Shown here: one piece after another, positions 27,125-28,665 of the stretch
Layout of the letters: each line of letters begins with the position of its first letter
How positions within the stretch are numbered: position 1 is the first letter of the stretch
Assembly (NCBI RefSeq): GCF_019740355.2
Contig: NZ_CP091819.1
Location: 2,232,001-2,296,000 of the forward strand
Direction: 5' to 3'
Length of the DNA stretch: 64,000 bases
Source: Paracrocinitomix mangrovi
GTDB taxonomy: Bacteria > Bacteroidota > Bacteroidia > Flavobacteriales_D > Crocinitomicaceae
Made by a program: the position numbers and the translations under genes
The notes under the pieces: model-generated
Seen by the model: only the letters and a program-made list of their open reading frames with translations
Told to the model about the DNA's origin: nothing
Database searches by the model: none

Positions 27125-28132
27125 TTACCACTGATTTAATACAAGATTTTGAAGCAGCTTATTAATAAGCTGCTTTTCTTTTTCATGACCTATTTGCAAT
27201 AAAAAAGCATGGATTGTTGAAATTATAGTATTTCCTTCTTGCGGAACAAAAGCCCAACCTTTAATCTCATTTTGAGTAATTAATAAATTACCGTCCAAGA
27301 CTATTGCATGACTAAAAATTCTTCCGTTGTATCCATATCTTCTTCCCATTTCAAAAACTACATTAGAGTCAAACTTACTTGTTCTTGAAACCAAAGGACT
27401 ATTATCAATCAAATCAATTACACTGTCTTTTAGTGGAGATTTTAGCTTCAAATTAAATCTAACTGAATGTAGAAACTGACTAGGAGTTGTAATATCTGAA
27501 GCAGTACAATTTGCATCCACTCCAATTGATTTAAACATATCATTTACATCAATTGAATGATGAGTTCCTGCAACTTCATCTAAATGTCGAGAAACAACAT
27601 TACCTGATACCATTCTTTGGTGATTACCAATATCCTCAGATCTTCTTACCACCACCATATCTGCAGATTCTAAATTTTGTAAGAGATCTCCCCCAAACAA
27701 TCTCATTATGGCTGCCGAACCATGCATATTGCAAGATACAACATGAACAAACTTTTCATTTTTAATAAGCTCATTATTAAGTCCGGACATAAATGAAACA
27801 CCAAAGCCTTTTTCGCTTCCCTGAGCAGATGCTCCTATTAAATTTGGTAGCTTATCATAACGATCTTTATTTAAGAGGCCAACACCATTTGCAGCACATT
27901 CAAAAATGTAATTCACCTTAGGTAAAACATCTTCCGGGTTTGGATAGCTAACATCATCAGAACATACTTTTATTCCTTTTGCTTCAAGTAAATTAAGCTC
28001 TATACTTTGCCATGGTTGAATTTTTCTTTTGTATGCCCAAACTTCATCAATGCCAAAATCAACTTTATAATCCAACAATAAATTAGCTACAGTGGTTCCG
28101 ATATTTCCTAATCCATTAACTAAAACAATCAT
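27125..28132 (-). CDS. Archaeal-type (type II) glyceraldehyde-3-phosphate dehydrogenase-like protein
   Basis: 335 aa. N-terminal Rossmann pattern GLGNIGTTVA (8-17). The nucleophile region is SCNMHGSA with Cys134. A downstream block RRSEDIGN (163-170) followed by GTHHSIDV (189-196) matches the RR..D ... HH..DV pattern of archaeal class II GAPDH rather than the bacterial ASCTTN form. The family oxidises phosphorylated aldehydes with NAD(P). The neighbour is an initiating sugar transferase whose gene overlaps this start by 4 nt, so the true substrate may be a sugar-pathway aldehyde. No central glycolytic context is present. Confidence 0.7.
   Translation of the reverse strand: MIVLVNGLGNIGTTVANLLLDYKVDFGIDEVWAYKRKIQPWQSIELNLLEAKGIKVCSDDVSYPNPEDVLPKVNYIFECAANGVGLLNKDRYDKLPNLIGASAQGSEKGFGVSFMSGLNNELIKNEKFVHVVSCNMHGSAAIMRLFGGDLLQNLESADMVVVRRSEDIGNHQRMVSGNVVSRHLDEVAGTHHSIDVNDMFKSIGVDANCTASDITTPSQFLHSVRFNLKLKSPLKDSVIDLIDNSPLVSRTSKFDSNVVFEMGRRYGYNGRIFSHAIVLDGNLLITQNEIKGWAFVPQEGNTIISTIHAFLLQIGHEKEKQLINKLLQNLVLNQW
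27152..27184 (+). terminator. Terminator for the Cys-rich gene, embedded in the convergent GAPDH-like CDS
   Basis: A perfect 24-bp palindrome, AAGCAGCTTATT followed by its exact complement (27152-27175), precedes TTTTCTTTTT on the plus strand. It lies 29 nt after the plus-strand stop and encodes part of the C-terminus of the minus-strand protein. Confidence 0.7.
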
Positions 28133-28665
28133 TTGCTGTACAAGATTTTTTTCACTTTTTGTTTACCTAAAAATGGAACCAAAACAGATGATAATAATAT
28201 TTGAAAATTCAATTTGAGAGATTCATTCTTAATGTAATAATGATCCAAATACCAACTCATTTTTTTATCACAAACAGGAGACAATTGTGCCAAACCTATT
28301 ATTCCAGGCCTTAAATTCCATCTAACTGCATAATAATCGTCATTCCAACCAAGCCTGCTAATATCAGATTGAGTTAGGGGTCGAGGGCCAACCAAAAACA
28401 TCTGTGCTGACATGATATTTAATAATTGTGGTAATTCATCAATACCCGTTTTTCTCAAAACTTTACCAACCAATGTTACTTCATCATTTAACATAGATCT
28501 AAATTTAATAAGCTTGAAAGTCTTTTTATTTAGGCCCACTCTTTCCTGAACAAAAAACGGATTGTGAAAATCAGCTAAAAAGATTATTAAGGCTACCATT
28601 AAAAGAAATGGTAACAAAATTAGCAGGGCAACTAATGCCATTATTGAATTTGCAAGGGTTCGCAC
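28129..28665 (-). CDS. Initiating sugar transferase (bacterial sugar transferase, monotopic PGT)
   Basis: 178 aa. N-terminal hydrophobic helix (~8-31), then the family motifs VQERVGLNKKTFKLIKFRSM, TGIDELPQLLNIM, FLVGPRPL and RPGIIGLAQL. It is the short catalytic type that moves a phosphosugar from a nucleotide-sugar to a lipid carrier to begin glycan assembly. No polysaccharide-export or polymerase genes are near; only the GAPDH-like gene is coupled (4-nt overlap). The GTG at 28665 is the only good start, and TAAATTTA (minus strand, 28670-28677) lies 12 nt before it, again a leaderless arrangement. Confidence 0.87.
   Translation of the reverse strand: MRTLANSIMALVALLILLPFLLMVALIIFLADFHNPFFVQERVGLNKKTFKLIKFRSMLNDEVTLVGKVLRKTGIDELPQLLNIMSAQMFLVGPRPLTQSDISRLGWNDDYYAVRWNLRPGIIGLAQLSPVCDKKMSWYLDHYYIKNESLKLNFQILLSSVLVPFLGKQKVKKILYSK

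Follow-up and report, generated by a model that had tools for sequence, protein, structure and literature searches.

The closest described relatives of the two proteins considered here are the small monotopic phosphoglycosyl transferases (PGTs), which attach sugars to a lipid of the membrane, represented by PglC (PDB 8e37 and 8g1n; PF02397), and the class II phosphorylating glyceraldehyde-3-phosphate dehydrogenases (GAPDHs), represented by the PDB chains 1b7g, 2czc, 2yyy, and 1cf2 and by the family models PRK04207 and TIGR01546. According to two reports on PglC (PMC12550135, PMC10519829), a mobile loop comprising residues 61 to 81 closes on the UDP-sugar; the predicted contacts to the uracil are Phe43, Met63, and Arg79, and those to undecaprenyl phosphate are Arg88 and Arg145, the latter located in an NGRN motif. 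The mobile donor element is described as 20 to 30 residues long in the former (PMC12550135). Class II GAPDHs were regarded as uncommon in bacteria and as lacking functional evidence there as of 2019, and the type II GAPDH of another bacterium displayed no GAPDH activity when assayed, according to the same report (PMC6543838); possession of the fold is therefore no guarantee of the function.

The window analyzed here is a stretch of 64,000 nt of Paracrocinitomix mangrovi (GCF_019740355.2, NZ_CP091819.1, positions 2,232,001 to 2,296,000), the genome of which consists of one contig of 4.37 Mb. Two neighboring genes on the minus strand of this window encode a relative of each of the enzyme families mentioned above.

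Conservation and surroundings of the gene pair

Both open reading frames lie at the place given in the initial annotation, on the minus strand, where the gene encoding a short monotopic PGT homologue of 178 amino acids (28129 to 28665, GTG start) shares 4 nt (28129 to 28132), spanning its stop and the start of the following gene, with the one encoding a class II GAPDH-like dehydrogenase of 335 amino acids (27125 to 28132, ATG start). The assignment of the former as a short sugar transferase is borne out by its match to PF02397 (Bac_transf), scoring 139.1 bits against a cut-off of 27, and the motifs attributed to the latter are all present, namely SCNMHG at residues 133 to 138, R163 and R164 with D167, and H191 and H192 with D195 and V196. 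The overlapping genes are probably translationally coupled. A 4-nt overlap is by itself commonplace; the pairing of the two genes across genomes is far above chance.

The initial annotation had proposed a neighborhood survey for the same gene pair as a check of conserved linkage, and such a survey returned the PGT gene directly before the dehydrogenase gene in 30 of 30 testable genomes, that of the window included, belonging to three families, one of which falls outside the class of the window's genome. A genome was deemed testable when its contig continues past the dehydrogenase start and the dehydrogenase gene is unbroken. The 30 genomes correspond to the 29 clear matches in the family, minus G906, in which the pair is broken, and G963 (locus L071), in which the contig edge is reached before the PGT, plus G087, G477, and G1008; two further partial matches in G896, on contigs C102 and C103, do not enter the counts. 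At 29 loci measured with script-chosen starts (G892 was omitted since its dehydrogenase start was miscalled), the facing ends of the two genes range from a 47-nt overlap to a 22-nt gap, 13 of the 29 featuring the 4-nt overlap.

Our sampling covered Bacteroidota genomes as well as phage, plasmid, and viral collections, and the pair proved to be scattered within the Bacteroidota. Searching for the dehydrogenase in 240 genomes of the family yielded 30 matched genomes, of which 29 were clear and one, G043, was too weak to be counted (25.5 bits). Among 99 relatives, 11 genomes matched (10 clear ones and the weak G031, at 19.6 bits); among 395 genomes of the class, only the window's own genome, G739 with the protein P0003, and one weak case did; and among 395 genomes of the phylum, 12 did, comprising the window's own genome, the clear G477, and ten remote or weak matches. 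The search in 123 genomes of the order of G477 matched two. A further relative of the dehydrogenase, originating from a named record, is found on the Crocinitomicaceae metagenome contig L014, which ends inside the gene. In G906 (L072, 1498 to 2108), both genes are present as fragments and a stop interrupts the match to the dehydrogenase, which points to either decay of the module or an assembly error.

When 59 relatives were searched with the PGT profile, seven proteins scored 285 to 308 bits, the next best PGT reaching 136 bits. These PGTs occur in all seven genomes that harbor a clear dehydrogenase and in none of the other 52, and therefore, in this sample, the PGT is dedicated to the dehydrogenase. 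Pairwise distances of the two proteins correlate across 27 loci, two truncated proteins having been left out (r = 0.85; none of 2,000 permutations was as high), a result for which shared species history alone would be sufficient.

Beyond the two genes, no third one recurs in more than two of ten contexts, as judged from 28 pair loci with 429 open reading frames of at least 80 amino acids, those of the pair included. The dehydrogenase recurs in all ten contexts and the PGT in nine, with the tenth contig ending before the PGT. The contexts were assigned by hand from maps; A and B have several genes in common and thus do not count as fully independent, and the PGT of G892 was masked by the open reading frame filter. 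In the window, the pair is accompanied by genes for an NAD-dependent epimerase, a PPK2, a DnaJ/TerB protein, and a BrkB protein, which are conserved in context A or in both A and B. A recurrent glycan cluster was not seen around the pair at the 28 loci, where family-model scans covered part of the neighbors. The PMT_2 glycosyltransferase whose gene overlaps that of the dehydrogenase in L071 is the sole such case among the mapped loci.

A phage, plasmid, or defense origin of the pair was considered and rejected, as the dehydrogenase has no confirmed match in the viral, plasmid, and phage collections and neither protein matches any family of the PADLOC anti-phage models up to an E value of 0.01; the patchy distribution comes without a known vector.

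We put forward, with about even confidence, an interpretation whose observed basis is the strictly linked pair, the retention of catalytic residues in both proteins, the change in the PGT's donor loop, and the absence of any further recurrent gene at the compared loci. Judging from these sequence features, the two genes may constitute a self-contained module of two enzymes, whose joint task would be to produce an unusual small building block and attach it to a polyprenyl carrier. The PGT, in which the dyad is kept, would transfer the phosphorylated building block onto undecaprenyl phosphate, while the dehydrogenase, by means of its Cys/His pair and its class II GAPDH fold, would oxidize, or in reverse reduce, an aldehyde or acyl-phosphate of that building block, either before loading or on the carrier. 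Small triose- to pentose-phosphate derivatives are favored by the fold as building blocks. Such a module would presuppose activity of both proteins, a substrate common to them, NAD(P) as the cofactor, and undecaprenyl phosphate as the carrier. The catalytic competence of the pair is supported because the relevant residues are conserved; the linkage could instead reflect regulation or scaffolding. The role initially suggested for the dehydrogenase, namely, the oxidation of a phosphosugar or aldehyde in glycan or lipid-carrier metabolism, would be compatible with these observations.

The pair represents a strictly conserved two-gene module uniting two textbook enzyme families. In a search of the literature open without subscription, no paper was found to contain both "sugar transferase" and "type II glyceraldehyde-3-phosphate dehydrogenase," and none dealt with the pairing according to titles and the beginnings of abstracts.

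The donor loop of the PGT

The PGT belongs to the same family as PglC (profile A2 against chain 8e37, E value of 4.1e-37), has a similar size, and features equivalents of the Asp-Glu dyad, of Arg88, and of the GPRP motif. Since the numbering of the 8e37 chain is shifted by 4, the PglC dyad is Asp93-Glu94, which corresponds to Asp76-Glu77 in the window (codons at 28435 to 28440, minus strand); both residues, together with R71, the Arg88 equivalent, are invariant in 27 of 27 aligned pair PGTs. Unlike PglC, the pair PGT has a donor loop shortened by 12 residues (residues 59 to 75, encoded at 28441 to 28491, minus strand), so that Met58 and Asp76 are 18 residues apart, compared to 30 in PglC; in addition, its Arg79 equivalent is not conserved, and it carries an invariant Cys132 (codon at 28270 to 28272, minus strand), which is found in 30 of 30 pair PGTs and at this position in none of 20 other PGTs.

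These 20 PGTs, taken from the same and related genomes, served for comparison throughout. The Met-to-Asp spacing is 18 residues in all 30 pair PGTs versus 31 to 32 in the 18 others that could be parsed, the remaining two, which escaped the search pattern, being visibly long-looped. The place of Arg79 is occupied in the 30 pair PGTs by Lys (12), Glu (7), Gln (6), Arg (2), or other residues (3), versus Arg in all 20 others, as read by eye. A single one of the 30 pair PGTs carries Arg at the place of Arg145. Since none of the 20 ordinary PGTs has the motif either, this feature does not tell the two groups apart, and we accordingly dropped its loss as a sign of a new function. Among the 30 plasmid PGTs listed, out of 780 records, 29 have a net insertion of at least 11 residues with respect to the query and one has an insertion of 3.

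Shortened loops are also encountered elsewhere. The viral contig L122 (IMG/VR) encodes, at 2489 to 2884, a PGT that has a GRS motif and a donor loop of 19 residues and is situated among apparent glycosyltransferases as judged by eye, and a Hymenobacter plasmid PGT has a 24-residue loop. In light of these two cases, the notion that a short loop excludes UDP-sugars was abandoned, and a short loop by itself is no proof of a new donor.

The viral case shows a short loop to be compatible with normal priming, and both cases speak for the first alternative to be weighed. Here, the PGT would be an ordinary priming enzyme whose donor, the short loop notwithstanding, is a UDP-sugar; the dehydrogenase would make or alter the sugar precursor within the cytosol, and the remaining glycan pathway would have its genes elsewhere. 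We consider this possible, while leaning against it. It fits the clear membership in PF02397, the Lys or Arg that 14 of the 30 pair PGTs still have where PglC has Arg79, the Arg145 motif missing in ordinary PGTs too, and an epimerase gene, GalE-like by our reading, which lies a few kilobases away in all 10 loci of context A. Against it stand the uniform difference in spacing between pair PGTs and the parsed others, the rarity of Arg at the Arg79 place compared to its presence in all 20 others, and the fact that outside context A no sugar gene was seen recurring by the pair.

Within the two-enzyme module proposed above, a special case would be a carrier loading free of nucleotide sugars, giving rise to a new class of lipid-linked intermediates. 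The dehydrogenase would then turn a triose-, tetrose-, or pentose-phosphate into an activated acyl-phosphate or aldehyde phosphate, and the PGT, its nucleotide-recognition loop being pruned, would transfer this product to undecaprenyl phosphate via the Asp dyad, perhaps with the involvement of Cys132. We deem this version rather unlikely, and we place less weight on it, and more on the use of a UDP-sugar, because the Arg145 motif is missing in ordinary PGTs and 14 of the 30 pair enzymes retain a Lys or Arg at the position of Arg79. In either case, the pruned loop lends itself to examining donor selection by PGTs, a subject of current research (PMC12550135, PMC10519829).

When the PGT profile was run at an E value of 1e-45 against 296 genomes of the phylum, G099 and G292 matched besides the window's own genome, at 203 to 206 bits. 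Their PGTs have the same 18-residue spacing and are followed after 2 nt by a gene for a radical SAM enzyme (L115, 9373 to 11372, and L116, 7747 to 9743, from two different Bacteroidota families). The best matches of the radical SAM partner are HpnR and HpnJ, far below the cut-offs, and in the one partner scanned with Pfam a B12-binding domain scores just below its cut-off (30.2 versus 32.1). Neither genome is among the 12 that matched in the phylum search for the dehydrogenase. These loci resemble the pair in the 18-residue loop and in consisting of two genes, here 2 nt apart, and differ from it in the radical SAM partner and in having no Cys at the place of Cys132. Short-loop PGTs therefore appear as two-gene modules with different partners; if nucleotide-free loading were true, the PGTs coupled to radical SAM enzymes would be the second member of that class.

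The dehydrogenase and its relatives

The dehydrogenase scores 72.2 bits with NCBIfam PRK04207 (E value of 3.8e-20; cut-off 185) and 59 bits with TIGR01546 (cut-off 232.9), and it matches four archaeal class II GAPDH chains of the PDB with E values of 1e-11 to 8e-8, or of 7e-20 to 2e-14 when a profile is used. No Pfam family, PF00044, PF02800, and PF01118 included, was listed up to an E value of 10. As far as sequence comparison can tell, class II GAPDHs are its only credible relatives. In a tree, 16 pair proteins together with P0003 (17 rows) split from 12 class II GAPDHs (four archaeal, eight bacterial) with 100/100 support, and in a second tree, which includes Asd/ArgC and class I proteins as outgroups, the pair family forms one group (93/97) and P0003 is unplaced, both trees being subject to a long-branch warning. 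The initial designation as an archaeal class II GAPDH is hence upheld with respect to distant homology and to the catalytic residues, but the protein scores below both curated cut-offs and falls outside the class II clade.

The homology to class II GAPDHs extends over nearly the full length. The pair family and the class II enzymes have in common the GxGxIG nucleotide motif, Q104-G105, E107, S133-C134-N135, R163, D167, H191, D195, and H222. Among these, C134 and H222 never vary in the 16 pair rows or in the 12 class II rows, and the whole set of C134, H222, R163, D167, H191, D195, Q104, G105, and E107 is kept in all 16 pair rows and in 11 to 12 of the 12 class II rows. The presumed catalytic residues Cys134 (codon at 27731 to 27733, minus strand) and His222 (27467 to 27469, minus strand) align with Cys140 and His219 of the M. 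fervidus GAPDH, which we take to be the catalytic residues of that enzyme. Unlike class II GAPDHs, the pair family has an invariant set of its own, including R225-F226, R264, R271, Q298, G300-N301, and W335. Lys35, which is invariant in the pair dehydrogenases, would fit NADP(H). The Met136 of SCNMHG (codon at 27725 to 27727, minus strand) is peculiar to the copy in the window, Thr being present in the 15 other pair rows and in 12 of 12 class II rows. An AlphaFold model built from a two-row alignment had a pLDDT of 48.6.

The nearest relative of the dehydrogenase that we found outside the pair family is P0003, encoded on a 6.1-kb contig of a Bacteroidia genome (G739:C14, L049). It has 31% identity and scores 227 bits with the pair profile versus 87 with PRK04207. 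P0003 shares R225-F226, R264, R271, Q298, and G300-N301 with the pair family, but it is without W335, and there is no PGT on its contig. Its gene follows those encoding a RuBisCO (PRK13475, 854 bits, cut-off 489), which we take to be form II, and a phosphoribulokinase (362.5 bits, cut-off 236); the gene after it encodes, by our reading, a thioredoxin-reductase-like ferredoxin-NADP reductase. This row of RuBisCO, phosphoribulokinase, divergent GAPDH-like protein, and apparent reductase (L049, 1192 to 6105) is a possible Calvin-cycle operon with an unusual GAPDH, and our literature search brought up no description of an archaeal GAPDH within a Calvin operon of Bacteroidetes. The composition of the contig is in the range of nine other G739 contigs, a weak test in which the window scores almost as high, and P0003 is absent from the other three genomes of the family of G739 (one of four matched). 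The position of P0003 beside RuBisCO and phosphoribulokinase suggests that the relatives of the dehydrogenase perform GAPDH-type chemistry on triose phosphates, an argument weakened because its placement is open in the outgroup tree.

The surroundings of P0003, along with the retained catalytic residues, would also suit a dehydrogenase that is a true GAPDH or an erythrose-4-phosphate dehydrogenase isozyme of central metabolism, with its linkage to the PGT being mere co-regulation. We regard this as unlikely, since the same genome carries two class I GAPDHs, which score 192 and 161 bits with PF02800, the dehydrogenase scores below both class II cut-offs, and its tie to the PGT and its patchy occurrence are unlike those of a central enzyme. 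The tight coupling of the two genes could further be explained by a noncatalytic or redox-sensing dehydrogenase-like partner that regulates or scaffolds the PGT, and there is precedent for a response regulator binding to an initiating PGT (PMC12802240). However, the catalytic columns are complete and 80 positions are invariant in 27 sequences of the dehydrogenase, making this very improbable. Finally, an identity as an ordinary aspartate-semialdehyde dehydrogenase or N-acetyl-glutamyl-phosphate reductase, enzymes with a fold related to that of GAPDH and a catalytic Cys, which the initial annotation had named as the outcome that would count against it, can practically be discarded, as can a class I GAPDH, given that no Pfam match to these families is listed, that the PF01118 (Semialdhyde_dh) protein of the genome is encoded at another locus, and that the credible matches are all class II GAPDHs.

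As the dehydrogenase of the proposed two-enzyme module, a class II GAPDH relative with a fixed partner provides a handle on the role of such enzymes in bacteria.

Class II GAPDHs in other bacteria

The initial statement that bacteria normally use class I GAPDH needs softening, as full-scoring class II GAPDHs are present in other Bacteroidota and plasmid records contain matches to one of them. We located nine loci of class II GAPDHs of about 345 amino acids in other Bacteroidota (L037 to L042 and L044 to L046); the two proteins that were scored reach 458 and 464 bits with PRK04207, both above the cut-off. A conserved protein of about 220 amino acids (cluster C2) is encoded at most 4.5 kb away in eight of the nine loci. 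When a Bacteroidota class II GAPDH was used as the query, 37 plasmid records matched, and 23 of the 25 among the matches listed are annotated as type II GAPDH. Divergent type II GAPDHs are encoded near a PRPP synthetase gene and oxidoreductases on a Bradyrhizobium plasmid (L117, 3992 to 5026) and on a Streptomyces plasmid (L118, 3941 to 5065), where they have possibly been recruited into biosynthetic clusters.
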